A stretch of 40,500 bases of DNA, taken from NCBI GenBank assembly GCA_017941355.1, contig JAGAWN010000186.1, positions 1-40,500 of the forward strand, read 5' to 3'. The stretch comes from Ruminiclostridium sp. (lineage in GTDB: Bacteria > Bacillota > Clostridia > Oscillospirales > Ruminococcaceae). The notes under the pieces are model-generated. The model was not told the DNA's origin, did no database searches, and worked only from the letters and a program-made list of their open reading frames with translations. Made by a program: the position numbers and the translations under genes. This document shows positions 5,364-40,500 of this stretch, piece by piece (position 1 is the first letter of the stretch; every line of letters starts with the position of its first letter).

Positions 5364-5387
5364 AACGTTTTCCTTTCTTTTATCTTT

Positions 5388-6197
5388 TTAGACGTTCATA
5401 TATCTTGCGAGGAACTTTATCGACAGGTCTATCCATGCTTTGCAGGCTTCCTGACAGAAATACTCGTTTTTCGCTGTTACCTTGTCGCAGGTGGACATTC
5501 CGTGGGGTCCCACATCGAACATATGCAGTTCAACCGGCACCTTGTTGGAAACAAGTGCCTTTGCCATTACAAGGCTGTTGTGGGCAGGAACGCTTTCGTC
5601 GTTTGCGGTACACCAGATGAATGTCGGCGGGGTCTTGGGAGTGACGCGGTTTTCGAGGGAAAGCCGGGACAGGTCACTGTGGGGAGCGTCCTTGCCCAGC
5701 AGCACTTCAAACGAGCCTTTGTGGGGATTGGTTATGCCGCTGATAACGGGGTAGCAGAGTATCGCCGCGTCCGGGCGGATATCGTATCCCTCGCAGCCGA
5801 GGCGTTCCAGCACGTTCGCATCGTTCCACATGGTAGCGAGACAGCCCGCGAGATGCCCGCCGGCGCTTGCTCCCCAGACGGCGATCTTGTTGCGGTCGAT
5901 GCCGAATTCATCTGCGCGCAGGCGTATCTTGTAGAGAGCGTAAGCCGCGTCGTAAAAAGAAGCGGGGAAGCGCTGATTGCAGGTGTAATACAGCACGAAC
6001 GCGTTGTAGCCCTCCGAAAGGTAGTGCATTGCTATCGGTTCGGCTTCCCGCTCGGAGGTGAACTCGTACCCGCCGCCGGGGAGTATCAGTATCGCGGGAC
6101 GCTTTTCGCAGAAGCTCACGCCGTCTATTGCCGAGAGCATATATGCTCTCATAAGCACGGTCTTTTCATTGTTCAGGTAAAACGTTTTTATGTTCAT
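5388..6197 (-). CDS. Alpha/beta-hydrolase, acetylesterase/BD-FAE-like
   Basis: A 269-residue cytoplasmic carboxylesterase-type hydrolase; no signal peptide is seen. It has the oxyanion-hole segment LPGGGYEFTS, the nucleophile elbow GASAGGH (serine near residue 130), the acid in ANDESVP and the catalytic histidine in GPHGMS, in the order of the xylan/acetyl esterase branch (Aes/BD-FAE family). It probably deacylates sugar esters taken into the cell, but the substrate is inferred. The ATG has AAAGGA ten bases upstream. It leads the operon with lysA, and a MITE-like element ends only 36 bases before its start, so the operon promoter may lie in or beyond that element. Confidence 0.85.
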   Translation of the reverse strand: MNIKTFYLNNEKTVLMRAYMLSAIDGVSFCEKRPAILILPGGGYEFTSEREAEPIAMHYLSEGYNAFVLYYTCNQRFPASFYDAAYALYKIRLRADEFGIDRNKIAVWGASAGGHLAGCLATMWNDANVLERLGCEGYDIRPDAAILCYPVISGITNPHKGSFEVLLGKDAPHSDLSRLSLENRVTPKTPPTFIWCTANDESVPAHNSLVMAKALVSNKVPVELHMFDVGPHGMSTCDKVTAKNEYFCQEACKAWIDLSIKFLARYMNV

Positions 6198-6233
6198 ACC
6201 GGAATGTCCTTTCTTTCAGAAAATACTGTATAT

Positions 6234-6449
6234 GGGTACCTCTAAAAACCGCTTTGAAAAGAGAAAATGTGTCAGCCGCGTTGAAGACGAGGAAAGGCTC
6301 CGAAGGCTTGCTGGTCTGTCGGTCAGCCCCTCTGTCTCGCAAGCTCGACACCTCCCCGCCGCCGGGGAGATCACGCAAGGCGAGGAGACTTGACAAAGTA
6401 TTCGGCGGGGCTGGCGCGTTTTCTCTCAAATGAGTTTTTAGAGGTTCCC
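6234..6449. mobile_element. MITE-like element with about 31-34-bp terminal inverted repeats
   Basis: The left end (6234-6267) begins GGGTACCTCTAAAAACC. The reverse complement of the right end (6419-6449) begins GGGAACCTCTAAAAACT. The two arms match over most of their length, ending in GAGAAAA. The 216-bp interior has no credible gene but contains GC-rich hairpins. No clear target-site duplication is visible. It separates the esterase operon from the UPF0210 gene. Confidence 0.75.
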
Positions 6450-6488
6450 TTATGCAAAACCCGGTCTGTCAACGGGATTTTTATACTA

Positions 6489-6521
6489 TTTGCAGATGTA
6501 CGGATCTCCGTGCTGCGGCAT
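6489..6521 (+). repeat. Dispersed intergenic repeat, copy A
   Basis: It contains TTTGCAGATGTACG, then CTCCGTG and CGGCAT. The same blocks occur reversed at 16513-16545 and, partly, at 26684-26721 and 33345-33378. It lies in the non-coding gap between the MITE-like element and the UPF0210 stop codon. Confidence 0.65.
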
Positions 6522-6558
6522 CGCTGCCGCTGCCCGCGAGGGCGTCTGCTGTATCTTG

Positions 6559-7917
6559 TCAGTTCTTCAGGCTTTGGAGCGGAGCGGGGATATGACCGCC
6601 GCGTGAGATGAATTTCTTCGGTGAGAACCTGTTCACGGACATTACGGGACCGCTGCCGAAAAGACCGCCGAAATCGAGAGTCTCTCCCTCTTTCATGCCG
6701 ATAGCCGGGATAACGCGGACGGCTGTGGTCTTGCTGTTCACCATGCCTATCGCCGCTTCGTCCGCTATGATCGCGGAAAGTATCTCGTCCGGCGTATCGC
6801 CCGGTACAACGAACATATCGAGTCCCACGGAGCATACCGCTGTCATCGCTTCGAGTTTTTCAAGGCAGAGGGAACCGCGGTTCACCGCGTCTATCATTCC
6901 GGCGTCCTCGGAAACGGGGATAAATGCGCCGGAAAGACCGCCGACACGGGAGGAAGCCATGACTCCGCCTTTCTTCACCGCGTCGTTAAGGAGCGCGAGA
7001 CACGCTGTTGTTCCGTATGCGCCGCAGCTTTCAAGACCTATCTCTTCGAGAATGTGAGCTACCGAGTCACCCACAGCGGGTGTAGGTGCAAGCGACAGAT
7101 CGACGATACCGAACGGCACGCCGAGCATCTTGCCGGCTTCCGTTCCCACAAGCTGACCCATGCGCGTTACCTTGAACGCGGTCTTTTTGATCGTATCGGC
7201 TATCTCGTCTATGCTCGCGTCCGGCATCTTTGCTATCGCCGCGCGGACAACGCCGGGTCCGCTGACTCCCACATTAATTACGCAGTCCGGCTCGCCTGTG
7301 CCGTGGAACGCGCCCGCCATGAACGGGTTGTCCTCGACGGCGTTGCAGAACACGACTATCTTTGCCGCGCCGAAGCAGTGGTCTTTTGCGGTGGCTTCGC
7401 TTGCCTGCTTTATGATCTTTCCCATGAGCGCGACGGCGTTCATGTTGATGCCCGCGCGGGTGGAGCCGACATTCACCGACGAGCAGACCTTTGTTGTCAC
7501 AACCAGCGCTTCCGGTATCGACTCGATAAGCTCCCTGTCGCCCGCCGAGAATCCCTTGTGAACAAGCGCGGAATAACCGCCCACATAGTTCACGCCTGTC
7601 TCGTCCGCTACCTTCTGGAGAGTTTCCGCGAATTTCACCGGACTGCCCTTAGCCGCCGCCGCAAGCATTGCGACAGGGGTAACGGAAAGCCGCTTGTTGA
7701 TGATCGGTATGCCGTAGCGTTTTTCTATGTTCTCGCCCGTCTTTACATGGTTGCAGGCAAGGCGCATCATCTTGTCATAGACCTTTGTGCAAGCCTTGTC
7801 TATATCGCTGTCGATGCAGTCGAGGAGGCTGATACCCATTGTTATCGTGCGGATATCGAGGTTCTCCTCCTGGATCATCTTGATCGTTTCGAGAATATCG
7901 TTAGAATTTAAGATCAT
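6559..7917 (-). CDS. UPF0210/DUF711 (PFL) family protein
   Basis: A 452-residue member of the UPF0210 family, whose members look like pyruvate-formate-lyase/glycyl-radical-fold proteins without a defined reaction. Recognisable segments are [14 protein letters not shown], the KRLSVTPVA block, [39 protein letters not shown]-type text in the middle and [10 protein letters not shown] near the end. The start is at ATG 7917, which has GAGAGG eight bases upstream; a GTG at 7926 is possible but too close to that site. It lies 12 bases after the ACT-domain gene, a pairing common in Firmicutes, and is cotranscribed with it. Confidence 0.9.
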
Positions 7918-7929
7918 TGCGCGCACCTC

Positions 7930-8199
7930 TCATATCCTGTGCATCGCGTTGAAAATATCTTCGTGCATGACATGGATCTGGAGCCCCATTTCCTCGCCCG
8001 CCTTGTTCAGCCTGTCCGCAAGCTCGGCGTAATGATCCTCACATTCCGTGATATCTATAAGCATTGTCATTGCAAACAGATCCTGCATTATCGTCTGCGT
8101 AACGTCCATAACGTTCGCGTTCGCTTCCGCGCATATAGTGCATATCTTTGCGAGTATTCCGACAGTGTCCTTACCAATAACAGCCACAACTGCTCTCAT
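7930..8199 (-). CDS. ACT domain protein (UPF0237 family)
   Basis: An 89-residue single ACT domain, beginning MRAVVAVIGKDTVGILAKI and including VMDVTQTIMQDLFAMTMLIDI. ACT domains bind amino acids or other small ligands. The UPF0237 members are almost always next to UPF0210, as here, so this is probably the regulatory partner of that protein. The ATG at 8199 has AAAGGA at good spacing; the open frame reaches 8256 but without support. It is transcribed from the promoter at 8262-8290. Confidence 0.92.
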   Translation of the reverse strand: MRAVVAVIGKDTVGILAKICTICAEANANVMDVTQTIMQDLFAMTMLIDITECEDHYAELADRLNKAGEEMGLQIHVMHEDIFNAMHRI

Positions 8200-8261
8200 A
8201 TTGTGTTCCTTTCCCGGCGTGCGCCGTTCAAACTGATTATGTGCAAACAAGCACAAACTAC

Positions 8262-8290
8262 ATTATACTATATTTTTTCTGAATTGTAAA
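8262..8290 (-). promoter_or_regulatory. Promoter of the ACT-UPF0210 operon
   Basis: Minus strand: TTTACA (8285-8290), 17-bp spacer, TATAAT (8262-8267). It is divergent from the promoter at 8349-8377. Confidence 0.85.
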
Positions 8291-8348
8291 GATTTTTCGG
8301 AAAATTTGTGAAGCAATGAGCAGAACCGAAAAAAATTTGAAATAGTTA

Positions 8349-8377
8349 TAGACAAATCAGGAAAAATATAGTATAAT
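8349..8377 (+). promoter_or_regulatory. Promoter of the PHP-Lrp-aminotransferase-ispE operon
   Basis: TAGACA (8349-8354), 17-bp spacer, TATAAT (8372-8377), followed by a GGGGGGA ribosome binding site before the ATG at 8405. Confidence 0.85.
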
Positions 8378-8404
8378 AAATCTGTATATGTTAGGGGGGA
8401 TCTC

Positions 8405-9211
8405 ATGGTACCGTTTGATCTGCACACTCACTGCACGCTCTCGTTCGACGGGCGCAGTACGGCGTCCGAAATGGTGCAGACCGCGGTTTCGCTCGGCATG
8501 GGGTATCACGCGCTTACAGACCACGTTGACCTCGGCGGTCACGCGGATCCGGAATTTGACCTTGAAGCCACGGTGAACGGCGCGCGGGAGACTATCCCGG
8601 CTCTGCAAAGGGAGTATGCCGGCAGACTGTGCCTGCTGTACGGCGTTGAACTCGGACAGCCCTGCCACGAACCGGAAAAGGCGGAGTTCCTGCTTTCGGA
8701 GAATATGTACGATTTTGTTGTCGGCTCCGTGCATAATATCCGCGGTCACGATGATTTCTACTTTCTCGATTACCGGGAGCATGACCCGGTGAAGCTGCTC
8801 GACGCGTACTTTGAGGAGCTTCTGGAGACTGCGGAATGGGGAAAGTTTGACATACTTGCGCACATCACATATCCGCTCCGCTACATTGCGGGCGAGTACG
8901 GCATAGATGTGGATATGAACAGGTATTCCGGCATTCTCGACGAGACGTTCCGCGCTCTGATAAGAAACGGCTGCGGGATAGAGATAAACACCTCCGGGCT
9001 GCGGCAGAAGCTGGGACGCACAATGCCGGAACTGCCGGCGGTGAAGCGGTACCGCGAACTCGGCGGCGAACTGCTCACGATAGGCTCCGACGCGCACTGC
9101 ACCTCCGATCTCGGCAAGGGGATCGCGCAGGGCATAGAAACAGCGAAGAAAGCGGGATTCACGCAGATCGCTGTGTTCAGAAAACGAAAACCGACATTCA
9201 TCAAAATATAA
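8405..9211 (+). CDS. PHP-domain phosphatase, histidinol-phosphatase (HisK)-like
   Basis: A 268-residue metal-dependent phosphoesterase. Metal ligands of the PHP fold are visible in order: DLHTHCTLSFDG (residues 5-16), LTDHVD, GVELG, VGSVHN, LAHI and GSDAH. The length and the segment after GSVHN fit the HisK/HisJ histidinol-phosphatase type that finishes histidine synthesis, although PHP proteins in this size class also dephosphorylate other small molecules. There are no his genes nearby, so the pathway assignment is tentative. It leads a four-gene operon. Confidence 0.83.
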   Translation: MVPFDLHTHCTLSFDGRSTASEMVQTAVSLGMGYHALTDHVDLGGHADPEFDLEATVNGARETIPALQREYAGRLCLLYGVELGQPCHEPEKAEFLLSENMYDFVVGSVHNIRGHDDFYFLDYREHDPVKLLDAYFEELLETAEWGKFDILAHITYPLRYIAGEYGIDVDMNRYSGILDETFRALIRNGCGIEINTSGLRQKLGRTMPELPAVKRYRELGGELLTIGSDAHCTSDLGKGIAQGIETAKKAGFTQIAVFRKRKPTFIKI

Positions 9212-9232
9212 ATGTACAGAAAGGAAAGAAAT

Positions 9233-9712
9233 ATGAACAAACTTGTTGAACTGTTACGCAAGAACGCGAGACTCACAAACAATGAGCTTGCCGTGATGCT
9301 CGGGAAAACACCCGAAGAGATCGAAAAGGAGATAGCGGAGCTGGAGAATGAGGGGCTGATAATCGGCTACTCCGCCGTCATCAACGAGGAAGAGGTTGAC
9401 CGCAACAGCGTCACAGCTTTCATAGAGATCAAGGTCTCCCCGCAGGCTGAGCATGGATACGACGATATCGCAACCATGCTTGCACAGTACAAGGAGGTTG
9501 ACAGCGTATATCTGATGAGCGGCTCCTTTGACCTGTCCGTGACCATTCGCGGCACCAATCTGCGCGAGGTGGCGCTGTTCGTGTCGGATAAGCTTGCGCC
9601 GATCGACGGCGTTCTTTCCACTACCACGCACTTCATACTGCGCCGTTTCAAGGAAAAGGGAATCGAGTTCCCGCTTATCGAGGACGACGAGAGGGGAATG
9701 GTGGGTCCGTGA
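9233..9712 (+). CDS. Lrp/AsnC family transcriptional regulator
   Basis: A 159-residue protein with an N-terminal helix-turn-helix (LLRKNARLTNNELAVMLGKTPEEIEKEIAEL-type text) and a C-terminal RAM/ACT-like effector domain (VTAFIEIKV to THFILRRFK). Family members sense amino acids and control nearby metabolic genes. The ATG at 9233 has AGAAAGGA upstream. Its stop overlaps the start of the aminotransferase gene (TGATG), so it likely regulates, or responds to products of, that enzyme. The target site is not identified. Confidence 0.92.
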   Translation: MNKLVELLRKNARLTNNELAVMLGKTPEEIEKEIAELENEGLIIGYSAVINEEEVDRNSVTAFIEIKVSPQAEHGYDDIATMLAQYKEVDSVYLMSGSFDLSVTIRGTNLREVALFVSDKLAPIDGVLSTTTHFILRRFKEKGIEFPLIEDDERGMVGP

Positions 9713-10884
9713 TGAACTACGAAGAAATACTTTCGCAAAAGACCCAGGCGATAAAGTTCTCCGGGATACGCAAGTTCTTTGACATTGCGGCTTCCGTCAA
9801 GGACGTCATAAGCCTGTCTGTCGGTGAGCCGGATTTCAAGACACCGTTCATAATCCGCAAGGAAGCAATAAAAACACTGGAAAAGGGCAAGACCGCATAT
9901 ACTTCAAATGCCGGTCTGGAATCCCTGCGTTCATCAATCGCCGGGTATCTGAACGAGACTATCGGCGTAGAATACGATCCGAAGCACGAGATCATCGTGA
10001 CCGTAGGCGGTTCGGAGGCGATAGACGCGGCATTCCGCGCTCTGCTCAATCCGGGCGACGAGGTGCTGGTATGCGAGCCGAGCTTTGTCTGTTATGACCC
10101 GCTTATCAGACTTGCGGACGGAGTTCCTGTTCCTATCGAAACAAAACAGGAAAACAAGTTCAAACTCATGCCGGAGCAGCTTCTCGCGGCGATAACCCCG
10201 AAAACCAAGGCTCTTGTCCTGCCGTTCCCGAACAATCCCACGGGCGCGGTCATGCGCAGGGACGAGCTTGCGGATATCGCGGCGATACTGCGTGAACGGG
10301 ATATCATCGTCATTTCCGACGAGATCTATTCGGAACTTACCTACGGCGACGAAAAGCACGTTTCCATATCCGAGTTTGAGGGCATGAAAGAACGCACGAT
10401 CGTCATAAACGGCTTCTCCAAAGCGTTCGCGATGACCGGCTGGAGACTCGGATTCGCGGCGGGTCCTGCGCCGATAATCACGCAGATGCTAAAGATCCAC
10501 CAGTACGGCATAATGAGCGCACCGACGGTGAGCCAGTATGCTGCCGTGACCGCGCTGCGGGAATGCAGAGCCGACATCGACTATATGGTGGGCGAGTACG
10601 ATATGCGCAGAAAGCTGATAGTGAACGGCTTCAACGAAATGGGGCTGGAGTGCTTCGAGCCGGAGGGCGCGTTCTATGTGTTCCCCTGCATAAAGTCAAC
10701 CGGGCTGTCGTCCCAGGATTTCTGCCTGCGGCTGATCGAAGAGAAGAAAGTGGCTGTTGTGCCGGGAGACGCGTTCGGCGAGTGCGGAGAGGGCTATATC
10801 CGCGTAAGCTACGCATACTCGATAAACCACATAATCTCGGCTCTAAAGCGCATCAGGGAGTTCATCAATGAGCTTGACGGTTAA
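9712..10884 (+). CDS. PLP-dependent class I/II aminotransferase (aspartate aminotransferase-like)
   Basis: A 390-residue fold-type I transaminase. Visible features are SLSVGEPDF near the N-terminus, PNNPTGAV, SDEIYSEL with the PLP-binding aspartate and tyrosine, the Schiff-base lysine in GFSKAFAMTGWRLG (K237), and the substrate-carboxylate arginine in YIRVSYA near the C-terminus. It resembles AspC/PatA-type enzymes; the amino-acid specificity is unknown. The ATG at 9712 overlaps the TGA of the Lrp gene, and the last 17 bases overlap ispE. The pairing with an Lrp/AsnC regulator is frequent in Firmicutes. Confidence 0.9.
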   Translation: MNYEEILSQKTQAIKFSGIRKFFDIAASVKDVISLSVGEPDFKTPFIIRKEAIKTLEKGKTAYTSNAGLESLRSSIAGYLNETIGVEYDPKHEIIVTVGGSEAIDAAFRALLNPGDEVLVCEPSFVCYDPLIRLADGVPVPIETKQENKFKLMPEQLLAAITPKTKALVLPFPNNPTGAVMRRDELADIAAILRERDIIVISDEIYSELTYGDEKHVSISEFEGMKERTIVINGFSKAFAMTGWRLGFAAGPAPIITQMLKIHQYGIMSAPTVSQYAAVTALRECRADIDYMVGEYDMRRKLIVNGFNEMGLECFEPEGAFYVFPCIKSTGLSSQDFCLRLIEEKKVAVVPGDAFGECGEGYIRVSYAYSINHIISALKRIREFINELDG

Positions 10885-30471: not shown

Positions 30472-30500
30472 TTGACATCATTTGGCGAATGTGATATAAT
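30472..30500 (+). promoter_or_regulatory. Promoter of the first surface C1 protease gene
   Basis: TTGACA (30472-30477), 17-bp spacer ending in TGA (extended -10), TATAAT (30495-30500). Confidence 0.92.
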
Positions 30501-30559
30501 TGCACTGTGTTCCGGAAGAGAACCGGGCTCTATCTTACGATCAGGAAAGGATAACAGCT

Positions 30560-33148
30560 ATGAGAAAACAAATCAAATCGGCTGCGGCAGCCGCGCTTGC
30601 GGCAATGCTTGCGGCTGCGAACTGCGTACCGGTCAGCGCGGCGGGCAAGCTCTCACTTACCAAGGACGATCTTGTGAAAGCCCTTTACATTCTGGGCTAC
30701 GAAGAAGCTCCGCCTTACGAAGTGAAGCGTCAGCCTGACGTTGATACTTCCGGGCTTCCGTCAAAGTTCGACCTGAGAGACGTTGACGGCAAGAACTACG
30801 TTTCCCCGGTCAAGATCCAGAATCCGTGGCTTACCTGCTGGAGCTTCGGCGCTACCGCGGCTGCCGAAACAAGCATTGCTTACGAAAAGGGTCACGATTA
30901 CAATAATGATACCGGAAGCGACGAGGACGCTTTGTTCGACCTGTCCGAAAAGCACCTCGCGTGGTTCGCCTACACCGCGCTGCCTGAGGATTCAAAGGAA
31001 TTTCCGTCACAGGCGGGAGAGGGCTATCGGTTCACTTACTTTGACGAAGCAGATGCCGAAGAGATATCCAGAACGGTATATAACCAGGGCGGTTTTATGA
31101 ACTACGCCACAGCGGTGTATTCTTCCGGAATGGGTCCCAACCTTGAGGGGGTAGTGCCTTACGAGGAGACTACCAAAAAGGACGTGGCAGGAATAACGCT
31201 TTATGTATATGAGATATCTCCGACCGGCGGATTTACCTGTACTAAAACAGAATATGACACGTCCGAAACAACTGTCGAGGAACTCAGAAAAGAGTGGACG
31301 GAAAAGGGATACATCGAAGACGAAACTCCTGACGGCGCAGAGATGGCATATTGGATCGTTTCTTCGGGAATGTCCCAGGTGCCGCTGACCCCGGAGCAGC
31401 AGGAAAAGATGAATGAAGAGATGGGCGGAGAGACCCAGAAGCATTTCATAGCTTTTATGGACACCTCCACCGGCGACTGGACGCTTGACGAGAGCCAGCG
31501 CTTCATGAGCTTTTACACGCTCAAAGACGGAAATATGCTGCCCTGTCCCGCTCTCGAAGGCGAGAACGGCGAATACATCTTCAATCAGGCAGGCGTTGAC
31601 GCGATAAAGTCCGAGGTCGTGAACGGAAGAGCGGTTTCGATAACGTTCCTCGCGGATCAGTCCAGCCCCGAAGACGAGATAGCGGCAAACGGCGAGAGCT
31701 ACATCAGCTTTGTCGATAAGGACGGCAATTTCACAAAGGATAAGCTTGCGGAATACTGGACACATTACACATACGACAAGGACTACGATCCCGCAGACAA
31801 GAACTCCGTGAACAAAAAGGTCAGCATGAATCACGCCGTCTGCATCGTAGGCTATGACGACGATTTCCCGAAAGAATATTTCAGAGATCCGAAAGGAACT
31901 ATCGGCGGCAACGGCGCGTTCCTCGTGAAGAACAGCTGGGGCGATGCCCAATACAACGAGAACGGCGATCTGATGACCACATGGGGCAACGCGGGTACAG
32001 GCTACTTTTGGCTGTCCTACTACGATCAGAGTCTCGATCTTCCCGAAAGCTTCGATTTCGAGACAGAGAGCGAGTATGTTCCGCACAACATAGATATGTA
32101 CGACTTCCTCCCCAACGGCGGACTTAAAAGCAAGTCCTTTGACGGCGATGTGTATATGGCAAATGTGTTCACGGCACAGAGCAACTGCACAGTCCGCTAC
32201 ATCGGTCTTGAAAGCGCTGAGGCTGACATCGACGTGGATTACAGCGTATATCTGCTGAACGATGACGCAAAAAGCCCGATCGACGGCGAGCTTTTCGCGG
32301 AGGATACCGAGCATTTCGACTACGCGGGCTATCATGTTGTCGATATCGGCAAGACATGGTATCTGCCCAAGGGCGCGAAGTATTCCATAGTTGCAAAGGC
32401 AGGCGCGGACGGCAAGAGCGAACTCTACTACGCGGAAGTTTTCAACGAGAAAGATATAACGGGTGAAGGTATGCTCCCCGGCGCAACCTATGACATGAGC
32501 ATAAACGGCATCGTGAACCCCGGCGAAAGCTTCGTGGGAACAAGCCTTGAGGACTCCGGCGCATGGGTGGATTGGTCTGACGTTGTTACTGAAATGAGAG
32601 AGAGCAGCCTTGAAGTTATACCCCACGGCATTGCGTATGACAACTTCCCGATCAGAAGCTATCCGCAGACCGAACCCTACACCATATTCAACCTGAACAG
32701 CGAACCCGAAAAGGAGATCTACAAGGTCGGCGACAAGATCACAGGCTATGCTGTGGTACAGAACAACAGCGGCTATGATCTCAGCGAACTCGGTGACATC
32801 TCCCTCGCGGTGAATATCGGCGGCGTTAAGAACTTCCCCATCGGCAGGATCTCGACTCTGAAACCCGAAGAGAGCAAGATGTTCACTTACGAATACACCG
32901 TGACTGCGAAAGACGCGGCTGCGGGCAAGCTCACAAGCACGGTCTCCGTACTGTTCGACGGCGTTGAAGCCGATTCCGGCGCGCTGTTCGCGGAGACTCT
33001 CACATTCACTGTCAATACCGAAGAGAGCGGTTCGTCCGTTGACGGCGCTTCCGACAAGAACCCCGCTACCGGCAGCGAGATATTCTCGCTCGCAGTTCTC
33101 GCGGGTGCTGCGGCGGCAACTGCGTTCGTAAGCAGAAAACGCAGATAA
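30560..33148 (+). CDS. Sortase-anchored papain-like (C1A) surface protease with lectin-like domain
   Basis: An 862-residue exported cysteine protease. The signal peptide begins MRKQIKSAAAAALAAMLAA and ends near VSA-AGK. Papain core: Q87 (oxyanion), C93 in TCWSFG, H425 in NHAVCIVGYDDD and N458 in VKNSWG, with an unusually long insert between C93 and H425. It is followed by a lectin-like domain (YMANVFTAQSNCTVRYIGLE to DNFPIRSYPQTEP), as in clostridial Cwp84-type proteases, and an Ig-like module. The C-terminus has NPATG (834-838), a hydrophobic segment and RKRR, a sortase signal. A paralogue follows in tandem. The substrate is unknown; surface-protein maturation or gut protein degradation is inferred. 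Confidence 0.92.
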   Translation: MRKQIKSAAAAALAAMLAAANCVPVSAAGKLSLTKDDLVKALYILGYEEAPPYEVKRQPDVDTSGLPSKFDLRDVDGKNYVSPVKIQNPWLTCWSFGATAAAETSIAYEKGHDYNNDTGSDEDALFDLSEKHLAWFAYTALPEDSKEFPSQAGEGYRFTYFDEADAEEISRTVYNQGGFMNYATAVYSSGMGPNLEGVVPYEETTKKDVAGITLYVYEISPTGGFTCTKTEYDTSETTVEELRKEWTEKGYIEDETPDGAEMAYWIVSSGMSQVPLTPEQQEKMNEEMGGETQKHFIAFMDTSTGDWTLDESQRFMSFYTLKDGNMLPCPALEGENGEYIFNQAGVDAIKSEVVNGRAVSITFLADQSSPEDEIAANGESYISFVDKDGNFTKDKLAEYWTHYTYDKDYDPADKNSVNKKVSMNHAVCIVGYDDDFPKEYFRDPKGTIGGNGAFLVKNSWGDAQYNENGDLMTTWGNAGTGYFWLSYYDQSLDLPESFDFETESEYVPHNIDMYDFLPNGGLKSKSFDGDVYMANVFTAQSNCTVRYIGLESAEADIDVDYSVYLLNDDAKSPIDGELFAEDTEHFDYAGYHVVDIGKTWYLPKGAKYSIVAKAGADGKSELYYAEVFNEKDITGEGMLPGATYDMSINGIVNPGESFVGTSLEDSGAWVDWSDVVTEMRESSLEVIPHGIAYDNFPIRSYPQTEPYTIFNLNSEPEKEIYKVGDKITGYAVVQNNSGYDLSELGDISLAVNIGGVKNFPIGRISTLKPEESKMFTYEYTVTAKDAAAGKLTSTVSVLFDGVEADSGALFAETLTFTVNTEESGSSVDGASDKNPATGSEIFSLAVLAGAAAATAFVSRKRR

Positions 33149-33524: not shown

Positions 33525-33595
33525 ATTTATGGTGTATGTTCAGCCGGAAGACGGACATACGCCGGAATGATCCGATATTGGAAGGAAGGAAAACA

Positions 33596-36205
33596 ATGAA
33601 CAAAAAATTTCTGAAATTTACGGCGGGCGCGGTTGCGGTAATGCTCGCCGCGGCTGAAAGTGTGCCGGTCTATGCGGCAAAAAGCGCACTTACCGCGAAA
33701 GATTTCGTGAATGCTATCCACGAAAACGATCTGCTGCTGGATAAGAATAAGCGCGAGGATGATGAGCTTACTCCGACGAAAGTGGGTGACAGATCTCCCG
33801 TTGTGGATACTTCCGCACTTCCGTCAAAGTTCGATCTCAGGGACGTTGACGGCAAGAACTTCGTTTCCCCGGTAAAGGACCAGTCACCGTTCGGTACCTG
33901 CTGGAGCTTCGGTGCTACTGCGGCGGCGGAAACCAGCATCGCATACGCAAAGGATCACGACTACAATGCCGAGACAGGCAGCGAAGAGGACAATCTGTAC
34001 GACCTGTCGGAAAAGCAGCTCGCTTGGTTCGCATATACGGCGCTCCCGCAGGACGTACGGGGATTCGCTTCCCAGGCAGGCGAGGGTTATCATCTTGTAG
34101 GCGAGGAGGATATGACGCTCGATGAGAGAACCAGCCTGATCTACAACATCGGCGGCGGAATGAACTACGCCACCACCGTGTATTCCGCGGGAATGGGTCC
34201 CGAACTTGAAGCGATCATGCCTTATGCGCCGACCACCGACAAGGAGTACCCGTGCAAGATGGTTATAGGCTGCAACGTAGGCGAGGACGGCTCGGTGAAA
34301 CAGGAAGATGTTTTTACCGATTACTATTACGGCGGTAGGATGACCAATGATGAAATAGCAGCCGAATGGACAGAAAAGGGCTATGAACCGGCAGATTTCA
34401 ATACGGTCAGAGAAATATACAATTTCGTTGTGGAGGGCGGCACAAAGCTTCCCGATTACACCGGAGAAGGGGAAAAGCTGTTCACGGTCATTGACACTGT
34501 CTCCTCGGGCGACTGGACGATAGACGAAGATATGAGGTTCCTGTCTTTCTACCACCTGAAAGACGGCAATCTTCTGCCCTCACCGGCGAGTGAGGACGAG
34601 AACGGCGCTTATGTGTTCAATCAGACAGGCGTTGACGCTATAAAGTCCGAGCTTGTGAACGGCAGAGCGGTGTCGATAGCTTTCAAAGCGGATCAGTCCC
34701 AGCCCGGCGAAACGCTCTCTGAGGACGGGGATCGCTTTATGAACTTTGTGGATAAGGACGGTAATTTCATCAATGACAGACTGGCGGAATACTGGACTCA
34801 CTATACTTACGATGTAAACTATGATCCCGACGACAAGAACTCCGTGAACGGTATTGTCGAAGCGAACCACGCGGTCTGCATAATCGGATATGACGACGAT
34901 TTCCCGAAAGAGTACTTCCGTGACCCCAAGGGTACATTAGGCGGAAACGGCGCGTTCCTTGTGAAGAACAGCTGGGGAAAAGTCAAGTACGACGATGACG
35001 GCAATATCACAAGCACATGGGGCAACGCCGGTACAGGCTGCTTCTGGCTCTCCTACTACGATCAGAGCCTTATTCTTCCCGAAAGCTTCGAGTTCGATAT
35101 GGACAACGATGACGCAGTGCGCAATATAGATATGTACGACTTTGTTGCGAGCTTCAGCAATACTTCTGTTGATTTTGACAGCGACGTATATATGGCGAAC
35201 GTGTTCACGGCGCAGAACAACTGCACTGTCCGCTTCATAGGTCTTGAGACTGCGGAAGCCGATACCGACGTGGAGTACAGCGTGTATGTTCTCGATGAGG
35301 GAGCGACAAGCCCTGTTGACGGCGTATGCGTGGCTACAGCGAATGAGCATTTCAACTACGCGGGCTATCATACCGTGGATCTCGGCAAGACCTGCTATAT
35401 CGGCGGCGGAATGAAGTATTCCGTAGTTGTAAAGGCTTCGGCAGGCGACAAGAGCAGCATCTTCTTCAACGAGCTTATCAATCCTTTCGGATACGACGAA
35501 GAGCTTACCAGAGAGACTCGCGGTGTTCCTTACTCAACAGCAATTGTGAACCCCGGCGAGAGCTTTATCGGTACCAGCCTTGACGATGCGAACGCGTGGA
35601 GCGACTGGTCGGATATCATTTCCGAACTGAGAACTCTCAACGCCGATCTCAACGACGACTGCTTCGAGTACGACAACTTTACGATAAGAAGCTATCCGCA
35701 GACCGAGGCTATCACAGTTCTGCATTTCCCTGATGATCTTGAAAAGGACACCTACAAAGTCGGAGAAACGATAACCGGTGTCATCATAGTCGAGAACAAC
35801 GGCTTCTACAAGTTTGACAAGGAAGACGAACTTAAACTTTATGTTACGATCGGTCAGAGCGATACCGAGCATCTCGTAGCGGAGATAAAGAAACTCGGAT
35901 TCGATCAGACCAAGACCTACACCTACAAGTACACCGTGACCGAAAAGGACGCTGCCGCAGGCGAGATCGCAAGCACCGTCAAGGTGAAGATGATGGGTGA
36001 GGATCTCAATGAGTTCGCGCTCTTCGATGATACTTACACTTACACCGTCAATGTTCTTCCTGCCGAGTCCGACACCGATGCGGCTGTTTCCGTGGAGTCC
36101 GAGTCTCCCGACAAGAACCCCGCTACCGGCACAGAGATCTTCTCCGTTGCAATTCTCGCGGGCGCTGCCGCTGCTGTTGCGTTCGTAAGCAGAAAACGCA
36201 GATAA
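33596..36205 (+). CDS. Second sortase-anchored papain-like surface protease (tandem paralogue)
   Basis: An 869-residue paralogue of the preceding gene, with the same plan: signal peptide (MNKKFLKFTAGAVAVMLAA to VYA-AKS), papain residues Q96, C102 in TCWSFG, H425 in NHAVCIIGYDDD and N458 in VKNSWG, a lectin-like domain, an Ig-like module, and a C-terminal NPATG (841-845) with hydrophobic segment and RKRR. The region between C102 and H425 differs most between the two, suggesting different substrates. Q-S-P-F-G-T-C is closer to the papain consensus than in the first copy. It has a separate promoter with an upstream palindrome. The ATG at 33596 follows GGAAGGAAGG. Confidence 0.92.
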   Translation: MNKKFLKFTAGAVAVMLAAAESVPVYAAKSALTAKDFVNAIHENDLLLDKNKREDDELTPTKVGDRSPVVDTSALPSKFDLRDVDGKNFVSPVKDQSPFGTCWSFGATAAAETSIAYAKDHDYNAETGSEEDNLYDLSEKQLAWFAYTALPQDVRGFASQAGEGYHLVGEEDMTLDERTSLIYNIGGGMNYATTVYSAGMGPELEAIMPYAPTTDKEYPCKMVIGCNVGEDGSVKQEDVFTDYYYGGRMTNDEIAAEWTEKGYEPADFNTVREIYNFVVEGGTKLPDYTGEGEKLFTVIDTVSSGDWTIDEDMRFLSFYHLKDGNLLPSPASEDENGAYVFNQTGVDAIKSELVNGRAVSIAFKADQSQPGETLSEDGDRFMNFVDKDGNFINDRLAEYWTHYTYDVNYDPDDKNSVNGIVEANHAVCIIGYDDDFPKEYFRDPKGTLGGNGAFLVKNSWGKVKYDDDGNITSTWGNAGTGCFWLSYYDQSLILPESFEFDMDNDDAVRNIDMYDFVASFSNTSVDFDSDVYMANVFTAQNNCTVRFIGLETAEADTDVEYSVYVLDEGATSPVDGVCVATANEHFNYAGYHTVDLGKTCYIGGGMKYSVVVKASAGDKSSIFFNELINPFGYDEELTRETRGVPYSTAIVNPGESFIGTSLDDANAWSDWSDIISELRTLNADLNDDCFEYDNFTIRSYPQTEAITVLHFPDDLEKDTYKVGETITGVIIVENNGFYKFDKEDELKLYVTIGQSDTEHLVAEIKKLGFDQTKTYTYKYTVTEKDAAAGEIASTVKVKMMGEDLNEFALFDDTYTYTVNVLPAESDTDAAVSVESESPDKNPATGTEIFSVAILAGAAAAVAFVSRKRR

Positions 36206-36288
36206 CGCCGGTTGTAATAAGATTATCGGTGTATCCGATGCATTCCGGATATATTGATATATAAATTTATTCAAAGGAGTATTATAAC

Positions 36289-38091
36289 ATGAACAAAAGA
36301 CTCAAAAGAACGATCAGCGCCGTGCTTGCAAGTGCAGTAATGCTCACTGCGATGACAGGCACACAGGTATTTGCCTCGGCGGACAGCACATCTGTTACCG
36401 CGACAGCAACAGCCGAAAAGACCTACAAAGTCGGAAGCAAGAGCGTAAACACTTATTTCTTTGCATACAGCGATCAGAAACAAAAGACAAAGCTTTACTT
36501 CATGAACGGAGTCAACGATGTTCCTTATATTGAGATCGATGACATGGTACAGTACCTGATAGCACTAATGCAAATGAAATATCAAGGGACCTACGATCTT
36601 AAGGTGGAAAAAGACGGCGATACCGTTACCCTCGCAAGAGAGAGCGGCTATACGGCAACGATCAACTTTGCCGATGACACCATTTTTTACTGGGATTTTG
36701 ACGGCTTCAACACAGCGGAAAGCAAGACTCTGATAGATATTATCCTCACGGTCTGGGATACTGCCGAGGGGATCACCGGACTGAAAACAGTCAAATCTAC
36801 CGAGCGCTACGGCACCCCCGTTACTATGAACGCGGCAGATTACGGCATAGATTTTGTTCGTAAGGGAGACAAGTATTACATACCCGTTCAGACCTTCTCC
36901 GATATATTCCTGTCACCCGGAATGTTAGGTGTGGCTCTCTATAACGGAAGATCTCTCATATTCTGTCGGGGAGAACAAGCAGAATTTTACGCTGGCGGCA
37001 AATACACCCAGCTCGGACAGGTGTATTACGGAAAGAACGGCAAGTACGCGAACAATAAGATCAGCGAGGAGCTTGCAGCATTCAGCGCGTGTGAGTTCTG
37101 CTTTGCAATGGATAATCTTTACGGATTGAGAGAAAAGCACAGTATAGACAGCTTCAAAACACTTTTACTGCAGAGAGAGTCCGGTTACAAGCTGTTTTCG
37201 ACAAAATCAAAGACAATAGACAGGGAGCTTCACTCGATAGTTACCGACGTCATTGATGACAGACACACCACTTATTCGATAAGTTCTTATGCTTCCGGAG
37301 TTGATTATGCAGATACTCTTGGTGAAAAATACGGCAGCGGATACGCTATAAGTACGATCGCCGACAGCTTCAATGCACATAGGACTGAAAGAGCAAAGTT
37401 TTATCCCGACGGTGTTCCCGCTTACGAAGAGGTCGGAGATACAGCATATATCACGTTCGACAAATTCGAAGTGGATATGGCATATATAGATCAACTCAAT
37501 TACGATGATCCGAGTACCATTGCGGGTACTTTCGGCGCGATCTCGTATGCGGTCAACAAGATAAACCGCAAGGACAGCCCCATAAAGAATGTTGTTCTTG
37601 ACCTTTCCTGCAATACCGGCGGAGGTGCTGACGCGGCAGTATTCACTATCGCCGCTTTCCTCGGCAAGGCAGGCATCAGCGTCGAAAACTCAAAGAGCGG
37701 CGCTCTCGTAACGAACTACTATAAGGCAGACACGAACTTCGACGGCAAATACAATTCCAAAGATACACTCGCAGGCAAGGGACTCAATCTCTTCTGCCTT
37801 GCCTCTCCGGTAAGCTTCTCCTGCGGAAACCTCGTTCCCTGCGTATTCAAGGAGGATCCTAATGTGTCCATAATCGGTCAGAAGTCCTCCGGCGGCGCTT
37901 GCACGGTAGGCACTATCTCCACGGCAACAGGCGCGGTAATGAACATTTCCAGCAACTTCCGCCTGAGCTACACAAAGAACGGTTCGTTCTATGACGTTGA
38001 CCAGGGTGCGGAGCCGGATTATGCAATTTCCAAGCTCGAACATTTCTATGACAGAGAGTGGCTCACAAACTACATCGACTCGCTTGCATGA
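36289..38091 (+). CDS. Secreted S41-like peptidase
   Basis: A 600-residue exported protein. The signal peptide begins MNKRLKRTISAVLASAVMLT and is cut near VFA-SAD. The N-terminal half contains a copper-amine-oxidase-N-like or similar beta region (YIEIDDMVQYLIAL to YYIPVQTFSDIFLSPG). The C-terminal half has the S41 fold: YITFDKFEVD, the segment NVVLDLSCNTGGGADAA, and PVSFSCGNLVP with a candidate serine near residue 511, then GQKSSGGACTVG. No PDZ domain or anchor is seen. AAAGGAG precedes the ATG. It is in line with the two C1 proteases and may be partly cotranscribed with the second. The catalytic assignment is moderate. Confidence 0.83.
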   Translation: MNKRLKRTISAVLASAVMLTAMTGTQVFASADSTSVTATATAEKTYKVGSKSVNTYFFAYSDQKQKTKLYFMNGVNDVPYIEIDDMVQYLIALMQMKYQGTYDLKVEKDGDTVTLARESGYTATINFADDTIFYWDFDGFNTAESKTLIDIILTVWDTAEGITGLKTVKSTERYGTPVTMNAADYGIDFVRKGDKYYIPVQTFSDIFLSPGMLGVALYNGRSLIFCRGEQAEFYAGGKYTQLGQVYYGKNGKYANNKISEELAAFSACEFCFAMDNLYGLREKHSIDSFKTLLLQRESGYKLFSTKSKTIDRELHSIVTDVIDDRHTTYSISSYASGVDYADTLGEKYGSGYAISTIADSFNAHRTERAKFYPDGVPAYEEVGDTAYITFDKFEVDMAYIDQLNYDDPSTIAGTFGAISYAVNKINRKDSPIKNVVLDLSCNTGGGADAAVFTIAAFLGKAGISVENSKSGALVTNYYKADTNFDGKYNSKDTLAGKGLNLFCLASPVSFSCGNLVPCVFKEDPNVSIIGQKSSGGACTVGTISTATGAVMNISSNFRLSYTKNGSFYDVDQGAEPDYAISKLEHFYDREWLTNYIDSLA

Positions 38092-38169
38092 GTGAGTAAT
38101 GGGGAAGCCTTCAGGCTGCGCTTTGAAGCATTTCGCGGCTGACGGGCAGACATTGATAATAACGCAGAA

Positions 38170-38197
38170 AACGCAGGACTCGTGTCCTGCGTTTTTT
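38170..38197 (+). terminator. Terminator after the S41-like gene
   Basis: AACGCAGGAC (38170-38179) pairs with GTCCTGCGTT (38184-38193), with a loop of four, and runs into TTTT. Confidence 0.93.
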
Positions 38198-38236
38198 ATG
38201 TAACTCTTACGGCGACAAAATCTCTTGCTATGATCG

Positions 38237-38265
38237 TTGACATTTCCCTCAGAATGCAATATAAT
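38237..38265 (+). promoter_or_regulatory. Promoter of the GH26 mannanase gene
   Basis: TTGACA (38237-38242), 17-bp spacer, TATAAT (38260-38265). Confidence 0.92.
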
Positions 38266-38307
38266 GAATATAAAAATACCTGTCTGTCACAGAAAGGAGT
38301 TCAAACA

Positions 38308-39276
38308 ATGAGCGACAAGCTGTACACGCCCGCAAACCCGGATTCGCAGAAATGTGTGGGGAATGTGCTTAAATTCCTGTCCGACATCACATACGACAGG
38401 ATAGTTACGGGTCAGCACACTCAGACCATGGCAATGGAGGAACTGCACCACATCAGGGATATCACCGGAAAGGAACCGGCTCTGCTGGGTTTTGAACTGC
38501 TGTCATACTCGCCGAACATCAACTATCTCGATACCGACGAGGAATGTATGACGGAAGTGACCGAGAATCACGGCACGCTGAAACGGGCGTGGGAATGGGC
38601 GGAGAAGAAAGGTCTGCTGACATTCACATGGCACTGGTTCTCGCCCCTCGGCGGACGCTCGAAATCCTTTTTCAGCGTGAACACCGATTTTGACGCGAGC
38701 CGTGCTGTGACAGACGGCACTCCCGAAAACAAGGCTCTGATCTCCGACATGGACGTTATGGCGGGACTGCTCCGTCCGTTCCGCGACAAGGGCATACCGA
38801 TACTGTGGAGACCGTTCCACGAGAACGAGGGCGGCTGGTTCTGGTGGGGAGCAAAGGGCGCGGACGCGGTAAAGAAGCTTTGGCGCATGATGTTTGAGCG
38901 CTACACCCGTGTGCATCATCTCGACAATCTGATATGGGTGTGGAATTCTCCGGCTCCGGACAATTATCCGGGCGACGATACCGTGGATATCATATCGAGG
39001 GATATGTACCCGGACAAGCACGTTCACACAAGTCAGAGCGAGATGTATCACGATCTTGTGAAGATCACCCGTCAGCCGAAAATAACGATCATCGGCGAGA
39101 CCGGCACTCTCCCCGACGCGGACGCTCTGCACAGCGAAAAGATAGGCTGGGCAAGCTATATGTCGTGGTCAAAGGAGTTCTGCCTAAGCGACGAATACAC
39201 AGCCCCTGAGTTTCTCAAAAGAACCTATCACAGTCCCAACGCCGTCACCCTCGATGACCTGCCGGAGCTTTACTGA
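38308..39276 (+). CDS. GH26 beta-mannanase, intracellular
   Basis: A 322-residue glycoside hydrolase of family 26, which cleaves beta-1,4-mannan. The acid/base glutamate is in WRPFHENEGGWFWWG (the usual family text is HEMNGGWFWWG) and the nucleophile glutamate in TIIGETGTL. Other landmarks are TGQHTQ near the N-terminus, TFTWHWFSP and YVSWSKEF-like SYMSWSKEF. There is no signal peptide, so it probably acts on imported manno-oligosaccharides. AGAAAGGAG precedes the ATG. The frame is open further upstream into the previous terminator, which is not credible as coding. Confidence 0.94.
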   Translation: MSDKLYTPANPDSQKCVGNVLKFLSDITYDRIVTGQHTQTMAMEELHHIRDITGKEPALLGFELLSYSPNINYLDTDEECMTEVTENHGTLKRAWEWAEKKGLLTFTWHWFSPLGGRSKSFFSVNTDFDASRAVTDGTPENKALISDMDVMAGLLRPFRDKGIPILWRPFHENEGGWFWWGAKGADAVKKLWRMMFERYTRVHHLDNLIWVWNSPAPDNYPGDDTVDIISRDMYPDKHVHTSQSEMYHDLVKITRQPKITIIGETGTLPDADALHSEKIGWASYMSWSKEFCLSDEYTAPEFLKRTYHSPNAVTLDDLPELY

Positions 39277-39319
39277 TAACAGACAGCCTTTGCTGTCGGC
39301 GGGGGAGAACCCACTCTTT

Positions 39320-39398
39320 CCAAAAAGGACTTTGCTCCGTATGTTTGTTTTCTGCAATTGGCGGGTGATCTGCCCCGCAGCCGTTATTGTCTGCCGGA
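39320..39398. repeat. Dispersed repeat, second type, copy 2
   Basis: CCAAAAAGGACTTTGCTCCG, then GGCGGGTGATCTGCCCCGCA and CCGTTATTGTCTGCCGGA; matches 33208-33285. Confidence 0.75.
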
Positions 39399-39515
39399 CT
39401 AAAATCCACTTTGATTTAGCAGAGGGCAGACCGTGTTACCGCTCAGTTTTTGTCATCAAACGCACGCTCTTTGCGCGGCATTGCCTTTATATGCAGCACA
39501 GATTAAAAAATTCCG

Positions 39516-39543
39516 GAAAACCGCAACGCACATTCCGGTTTTC
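39516..39543 (+). terminator. Possible terminator before the Nif11 genes
   Basis: GAAAACCG (39516-39523) pairs with CGGTTTTC (39536-39543), with a 12-base loop; TGCTTAT follows. The T-run is inside the stem. Confidence 0.5.
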
Positions 39544-39598
39544 TGCTTATATCAGTGAAAGGGAAAAGTGAAGAATTTCAGATTATTTTCCTCTTTTG

Positions 39599-39627
39599 TT
39601 GACTTATTGTATATTTTGTGATAAAAT
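39599..39627 (+). promoter_or_regulatory. Promoter of the Nif11 precursor genes
   Basis: TTGACT (39599-39604), 17-bp spacer ending in TGA (extended -10), TAAAAT (39622-39627). It leaves an untranslated leader of about 140 bases before the ATG at 39775. Confidence 0.8.
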
Positions 39628-39774
39628 ATAATAAAATTATTTGCATTAATAGCATTTCCGATACGGCGGTCAAACGGTCTGAACTTTGTTCTTTTCCATG
39701 CTGACGGCGGGCGAATGAACGCAGTATATCAGACAATTATCATAGAAACATTTTTACCCGGGAGGAACAAAACA

Positions 39775-40206
39775 ATGTCTAAAGAATCGGCAAAAGCGTT
39801 TGTACAGGCTATACTTAACGATGAAGAACTCAGACAACGCACAGAAAAAATGAAGCCCGAAGAAGCGATATCTCGCGCAATGGAAATGGGCTACGACTTC
39901 ACGCTCGATGAACTCAAAGGCGTTAAAGAAGAAGATGTCGAACTCTTCCCCGAAGAACTTGAAGCGGCAGCGGGGGGAGATAAAAAGAATGTCAATCAGC
40001 AAAAGTTTATCAATAAAGGTGTGAGGAAAGTACAGGAGGAGGAAAGCGAGCACTGTAATAATGATTTTAATGCCCCCTTACATAATTGGGTACCTACCGG
40101 TCACGAGGAAAGACCGGTTTTATGGGGCATATTCGGCGACTATACCAAAGGATATAATCTTTATAAATGCTCCCTCTGTGGCGCGACAAAGGATGAAAGA
40201 ACATAA
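39775..40206 (+). CDS. Nif11-type leader peptide with zinc-ribbon-like cargo
   Basis: A 143-residue precursor. Residues 1-68 are a Nif11-like leader (AFVQAILNDEELRQRTEKM, GYDFTLDELKGV, then EELEAAAGG), ending in a Gly-Gly (67-68) at which C39-type peptidase-transporters cut. The remaining 75 residues contain C26, H35 in LHNWVPTG, and C64 and C67 in YKCSLCGATK (numbered from the cut). This C...H...CxxC plan looks like a small zinc ribbon rather than a lanthipeptide-type core; only three cysteines are present. GGGAGG precedes the ATG. A second, similar gene follows at 24 bases. No processing enzyme is in the window. Confidence 0.85.
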   Translation: MSKESAKAFVQAILNDEELRQRTEKMKPEEAISRAMEMGYDFTLDELKGVKEEDVELFPEELEAAAGGDKKNVNQQKFINKGVRKVQEEESEHCNNDFNAPLHNWVPTGHEERPVLWGIFGDYTKGYNLYKCSLCGATKDERT

Positions 40207-40230
40207 GACAATACAACAGGAGGAATAAAA

Positions 40231-40500
40231 ATGTCAAAAGAAGCAGCATCAAAATTCGTACAGACTATACTTAACGATGCGGAACTCCGCATAAAGACAG
40301 CAGAAATAAAGCCCGAAGAAATAGTTCCGTTCGCAAAAGAAATGGGCTATGACTTCACGCTTGAAGAACTTAAAGAAGTTAAAGAAGAAGATATAGAACT
40401 CTCCCCGGAAGAGCTTGAAAGCGTGGCGGGGGGCGACAGTAAAGCCGTGCGTGATGGAATCAATCAGCACCAGAGATTTAGGAATAAGATTAATCAGGCA
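40231..40500 (+). CDS. Second Nif11-type leader peptide, cut by window end
   Basis: Ninety residues are visible and the frame is still open at the window edge. The leader (MSKEAASKFVQTILNDAELR, GYDFTLEELKEV, ELESVAGG) aligns without gaps with the first precursor and ends in Gly-Gly at 67-68. The start of the cargo (DSKAVRDGINQHQRFRNKI) resembles the first residues of the other cargo. AGGAGG precedes the ATG. It is in the same operon, so this looks like a tandem array of precursors. Confidence 0.88.
   Translation, partial: MSKEAASKFVQTILNDAELRIKTAEIKPEEIVPFAKEMGYDFTLEELKEVKEEDIELSPEELESVAGGDSKAVRDGINQHQRFRNKINQA

Follow-up and report, generated by a model that had tools for sequence, protein, structure and literature searches.

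Recombining arrays of Nif11-leader precursors carry a zinc-ribbon-like cargo family with a conserved Cys/His pattern

The window, the whole stretch of DNA that was analysed (40,500 bases), is identical with contig C67 of its genome (G000), and within its last 726 bases two precursor genes lie one behind the other on the forward strand. The first, w1 (39775..40206), encodes 143 amino acids, ends in a stop codon and consists of a 68-residue Nif11-type leader (39775..39978), which ends in AAAGG and has Leu at positions -12 and -7, and a zinc-ribbon-like cargo of 75 residues (39979..40203). The mechanically called open reading frame of w1 starts at 39715, but the ATG at 39775 is preferred because a likely ribosome-binding site, GGGAGG, can be read directly at 39760..39765. 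Four candidate ligands lie within the cargo: Cys26 (codon 40054..40056), His35 in the sequence PLHNW (40081..40083), Cys64 (40168..40170) and Cys67 (40177..40179). The second gene, w2 (40231..40500), is preceded by another directly readable, likely ribosome-binding site (AGGAGG, 40218..40223) and is cut by the contig end; what is left is a 68-residue leader ending in SVAGG (40231-40434) and 22 cargo residues without Cys. The two adjacent 68-residue leaders ending in Gly-Gly were recognised as Nif11-type in the preliminary description, and both indeed pass the cut-offs of TIGR03798 (51.4 bits for w1 and 59.7 bits for w2, cut-off 32.3) and of Pfam Nif11 (46.5 and 47.3 bits, cut-off 23.8). The first cargo was also described correctly, both in its length and its Cys/His pattern. 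To call the leaders near-matching was generous: they agree in family and length, but only 47 of the 68 residues are identical.

The operon had been predicted to continue past the window, and this is right in substance: a further contig of the same genome, C164 (10,881 bases), opens with six more Nif11-leader genes, all with leaders ending in GG. The ATG of the first is one base into the contig, and the remaining five follow head to tail with a GGAGG-type site ahead of each start. We infer that C67 and C164 are adjacent parts of one array that was broken in assembly. The genome has 18 Nif11 leader matches, all 18 above the TIGR03798 cut-off: eight on C67 and C164, two on C13 and eight on C40. 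The window also encodes two proteins in tandem (30500-33148, 882 amino acids; 33536-36205, 889 amino acids), which presumably are similar to papain-type peptidases that are secreted; their NPATG...RKRR tail resembles a surface-sorting signal. At locus L009, the region 3' of the array (5620-10672) encodes an FtsX-like permease, an ABC ATPase, a response regulator and a histidine kinase (permease and ATPase called from family matches below threshold, regulator and kinase by eye), a set that looks like peptide-sensing and detoxification modules; no FtsX/ABC or two-component genes of this kind were seen at L058, the array locus of genome G424. The gaps between precursors are 55 bases or less at both loci, which bears on the possibility of a dedicated immunity gene.

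Among the seven complete cargos of the window's genome, the only invariant columns are C, P, H, C and C (7/7). In a wider alignment of 13 cargos (window and L058-L062), Cys26, His35 and Cys67 are present in 13/13 and Cys64 in 12/13. The pattern C-x(1-18)-H-x(22-41)-C-x2-C (leftmost match; limits set after the sequences had been looked at) is found in 31 of 32 cargos from 14 genomes. These 32 comprise 27 cargos with Nif11 leaders, which are 53 to 91 residues long and have the pattern in 26 cases, and five cargos behind other leaders; with one representative per group of less than 50% identity, the pattern is found in 19/19. When the 27 Nif11-led cargos were shuffled 1000 times, on average 0.43 and never more than 4 of the 27 had the pattern, and as 26/27 were observed, its presence is beyond chance; the w1 cargo alone had it at a frequency of 0.006 in 20,000 shuffles. 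The usual conserved set has three Cys, some cargos have four or five, and the His is no less strictly conserved than the Cys. Thus, the Cys/His pattern is not lost in homologues, with the exception of one copy: the cargo of L058:5174-5605 in G424 (g3) is 93% identical to the w1 cargo, has Tyr in place of the third Cys and is possibly a decaying copy.

Several sequences were set aside from these counts: w2, whose cargo is truncated at the contig end; one copy with a frameshift (L062/L116) and one degenerate copy that contains stops (L063/L101); the leaderless proteins L095 and L109; the short match L105; a hybrid in G424:C213; a match within a 1342-amino acid frame of G315 (E 4.7e-4); and five matches within the genus with E values between 0.009 and 0.04. 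The broken precursor copies, with a stop codon in the leader (L063:10001-10233) or a frameshift (L062:7658-8066), are signs of turnover. In L095 a similar C..H.W...C..CG stretch ends a protein of 309 amino acids that has no leader, and in L109 it is found within a large protein with a signal-like stretch; as the motif occurs inside larger proteins too, the domain by itself is no sign of secretion.

Family searches identified no relative of the cargo: there was no match in Pfam or NCBIfam below E 0.005, and no significant one among PHROGs or PDB sequences. Two structure models (mean pLDDT 75.8 and 85.3) each have three strands, which are predicted to form a small sheet in which the CxxC falls on the end of a strand and a turn. 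A PDB fold search gave no significant match (best E 0.24), and in the fold comparison zinc-ribbon rows tie with unrelated rows. One feature of zinc ribbons, a set of four conserved Cys/His ligands that includes a CxxC knuckle, is present in the same 31 of the 32 cargos. The N-terminus of NrdR is a zinc ribbon, and proteins of this type appear in the comparison as structural rows only, with Z scores too low to claim a relation. The cargo also differs from them in its first half-site, which is C-x(n)-H rather than CxxC, and in being joined to an export leader.

The cargo family is rare and patchy and, by record titles, spans two phyla. Of 396 genomes drawn from the window's family, two match at E <= 0.001, the second one weakly; among 71 genomes of the window's genus eight match at E <= 0.05, three of them strongly (G000, G424 and G396). 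A search of GTDB contigs returned 405 pattern-matching stretches, of which seven were confirmed at six loci, one of these degenerate (L063). According to their record titles these loci come from water-deer rumen, sheep ileum and other metagenome-assembled genomes, and they are labelled Ruminiclostridium, Clostridiales, Clostridia, actinobacterium and Atopobiaceae. In the family of G460, 4/140 genomes match, three strongly, and in the family of G461 10/308; IMG/VR and PLSDB gave no match.

Leaders and cargos have evidently recombined. Five proteins have a related cargo behind a leader of another kind: four of these leaders have no NCBIfam match at E <= 0.01, while the L106 leader has a partial Nif11 match of 24.1 bits, under the cut-off of 32.3. 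By eye, all five are hydrophobic at -7 and -12 from the GG (AG in one). Between w1 and its G424 counterpart g3, cargo DNA is 94% and leader DNA 73% identical; between w2 and the first C164 gene the relation is reversed, with 96.6% identity in the leader and 54.5% in the cargo, over the 66 nucleotides available. In the G000 and G424 arrays, the matching cargos come in different orders. Five cargo pairs of these two genomes have DNA identities of 94, 99, 99, 91 and 72%, in comparison to 65-74% for NHLM ABC1 and radical-SAM genes, which may be paralogues; the simplest reading is that the two species have recently exchanged parts of their arrays. The dN/dS ratios of the five pairs are 0.22, 0.4, 0.51, 0.9 and one undefined, with few changes behind each.

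The leaders also carry the marks expected for processing by a C39 peptidase. When the 27 Nif11-led precursors are split at the GG, Leu is found at -12 in 25/27 and at -7 in 26/27; position -4 is Val, Ile or Leu in 19/27 and Ala in 8/27, including w1. Leu at -7 and -12 is important for the C39 protease LahT150 according to the available text of PMC6363468, and the leader ends agree with this C39 rule at both positions; Ala is not among the changes that this text reports at -4.

An NHLM exporter with C39 (TIGR03796) is encoded above cut-off in 7/7 carriers, in comparison to 22/71 genomes of the window's genus, a background that covers this one genus, and 0/14 control genomes. A second set of carriers, which has G462 in common with the first, has a C39 domain in 7/8 cases, resulting in 13/14 over both sets; the one missing it is G723, a weak match. 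This second count is the weaker one, because the C39 domain search alone also matches 6/14 well-known control genomes. The window's genome has three C39 domains, two of them in NHLM_ABC1 genes above cut-off, and NHLM-type exporters are on C13 and C29. The preliminary description had proposed a search to the right of the window for precursors, LanM, radical SAM and C39 genes. No exporter gene is present on C67 or C164, both of which break off inside the array; in the window's genome the precursors are therefore linked to the exporter by leader type only. The most direct link is found at L122 (genome G852). Here, the genes downstream of a precursor (5385-5765), all in its direction, are one that reads as SpoIIE-like, a short HlyD-like gene, NHLM ABC1 (914.9 bits, cut-off 853.3) and NHLM ABC2 (732.8 bits, cut-off 709.4). 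At L058, a HlyD-like gene that runs off the contig end lies 4 kb from the array (34.8 bits over 82 residues); the short HlyD-like proteins of C13 and L122 are, like this one, below the cut-off of 156.2 bits. At the other loci no exporter was seen near a precursor in the ORF lists, which were judged by eye (at L063 in part). Export of the cargo via C39 is thus a supported prediction, and so is the earlier suggestion that the leader would serve to export a metal-binding miniprotein: the C/H/C/C conservation, the C39 domains of the carriers and the exporter beside the L122 precursor all point this way.

From the leader, the Gly-Gly, the C/H/C/C pattern, the recombination and the exporter genes, all read in the sequence, we infer cleavage, export, zinc binding, lack of modification and a biological role. 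The reading that we consider probable is that the genes encode zinc-ribbon-like miniproteins which are cut from their leader, exported unmodified and kept as a recombining repertoire. An NHLM-type ABC exporter, acting in trans (in the window's genome from C13 or C29), would recognise and cleave the leader C-terminus with Leu -12, Leu -7 and Gly-Gly through its C39 domain. The released cargo would consist of a variable N-terminal linker and a domain of roughly 50 residues, a zinc-ribbon-like three-stranded sheet whose three Cys and single His (C-x(n)-H...C-x2-C) may coordinate a zinc ion. It would be in no need of lanthionine or any other modification.

The best of the alternatives concerns this last step. 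The cargo could be a RiPP, with its cysteines crosslinked prior to export by a radical-SAM/SPASM enzyme encoded elsewhere in the genome, as is likely for the other Cys-rich Nif11 cargos that these genomes encode; we consider this unlikely. On C13 and in G424:C213, a SPASM radical SAM enzyme does adjoin Nif11 precursors with another Cys-rich cargo. This second cargo type, with a conserved G-x-E..C and WC....C, forms arrays of up to 22 precursors (L010:133-1036, L032:93-2340, L065:1828-12242, L066:4132-10067), and its G, E and two Cys are present in 35/35 rows, which were selected by their Cys pattern, leaving out non-fitting precursors. Next to the radical SAM gene, the C13 array also adjoins an ECF sigma factor and an NHLM exporter. 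Yet another Nif11 precursor, with a Gly/Cys-rich core, lies beside a SPASM radical SAM gene on L032 (7535-7861 and 8009-9457). For crosslinking of the zinc-ribbon-like cargo speaks that the one copy of G396 sits amid 22 other Nif11 precursors, 19 of which are labelled as the second type, in an array of the kind associated with radical SAM, and that a natural hybrid combines the first half of one cargo type with the second half of the other: L066:6960-7397 (compared with L065:9138-9577) is near-identical to a zinc-ribbon-like cargo up to HEWN, continues with a tail of the other Cys-rich type and retains one His and three Cys. At L122, a radical SAM gene is on the opposite strand, 2.6 kb from the precursor.

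The distribution of the enzymes argues against it. Relatives of the C13 radical SAM are present in 5/7 carriers, the one of G459 with only 35% identity, while G460 and G461 have none at E <= 1e-20, and the cargos of these three genomes keep the C/H/C/C. C67, C164 and the G424 array contig have no such relative, those of G000 and G424 being on other contigs, and no radical SAM maturase was seen near precursors in the ORF lists of window positions 34000-40500, L009 and L058. LanM (PF13575) is absent from the window's genome at E <= 0.001, as it is from G424, G396, G461 and G462, and is present in two of the seven carriers (G459 and G460). Thus, neither enzyme is needed by the cargo family as a whole. 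The strictly conserved His, the usual set of three Cys and the profile comparison, which gives a probability of 1% for a relation between the two cargo types, also disagree with crosslinking. A novel modification of the cysteines, the other option of the preliminary description, is therefore the less supported one, even if such enzymes are encoded elsewhere in the window's genome and near the L122 precursor.

It is rather improbable that the cargo is an unmodified secreted peptide that forms disulfides outside the cell and binds no metal. Secretion and the small, Cys-rich cargo fit this, as do those cargos with four or five Cys, but a conserved core of three Cys and one His offers an odd number for disulfides, and there is little oxygen in the rumen and gut. 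Metal knuckles, moreover, typically have a CxxC(G) turn between strands, and because a conserved His stands beside the three Cys, we favour a metal site over disulfides or thioethers. That the genes encode intracellular small zinc proteins, with the leader as a vestigial domain of another role and no export, is very improbable: the window array has no adjoining exporter and a similar stretch ends the leaderless L095 protein, but Leu -7 and -12 are retained before the GG, the cargo is also found behind unrelated double-glycine leaders, and the L122 precursor lies beside an exporter of a type that all seven carriers have and fewer than a third of the genus genomes.

For the exported, unmodified metal-binding miniprotein, the arrays would serve as a repertoire, with recombination between leaders and cargos, cargo cassettes passed between species and a common export machinery. 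Its role is probably in competition or signalling between gut bacteria; this is a guess and the least certain step. More tentatively still, and with some doubt, the cargos could represent a new class of secreted zinc miniproteins: cassette-recombining zinc-ribbon effectors that are exported via C39 with whichever double-glycine leader is at hand, and that act as antagonists or signals with a varying target face on a fixed zinc core.

Nif11 leaders, their arrays and their exporters have been described before (PMC2887384; PMC3140520; PMC6363468, as far as the available text of each covers). The Nif11-derived peptides (N11P, TIGR03798) share with the precursors here the leader family, the Gly-Gly end, the paralogous arrays and the link to the TIGR03794/03796/03797 transport cluster; in comparison with the peptides in the available text of PMC2887384, the cargo here has 53-91 residues and a fixed C/H/C/C, and the search for a modifying enzyme next to the window array found none. 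Cyanobacterial double-glycine precursors of 28-164 amino acids are similar in leader and in the set of C39, HlyD and second ABC genes, but their cores have very little sequence conservation (available text of PMC3140520), while here gut Bacillota and Atopobiaceae have a conserved cargo family. The lah cluster of Lachnospiraceae C6A11 has nine Nif11-leader precursors with diverse cores and a C39 protease that reads Leu -7/-12 and GG; it is a lanthipeptide operon (available text of PMC6363468), whereas the window's genome is without LanM. Neither Nif11 nor zinc occurs in the main text of a 2026 rumen bacteriocin survey (PMC13289728), and in the portions of the literature that the searches covered there was no description of a zinc-ribbon-like Nif11 cargo. 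Class II (unmodified) bacteriocins resemble the precursors in their double-glycine leader and in the predicted C39 export without modification, but here no immunity gene was seen, there is no known activity and the cargo is metal-site-like.

Nif11 leaders are commonly read as the mark of a modified peptide, and genome mining looks for an adjoining modifying enzyme. The cargo family suggests that a Nif11 leader can also do no more than mark a small folded metal protein for export, and that such proteins may be carried by C39 exporters. The C/H/C/C pattern provides a searchable motif for genes that pipelines based on core peptides or enzymes could miss. The family would also be a natural test case for how a metal-binding cargo passes an exporter, and the exchange of leaders and cargos between two species allows a direct test of how such arrays evolve in modules.
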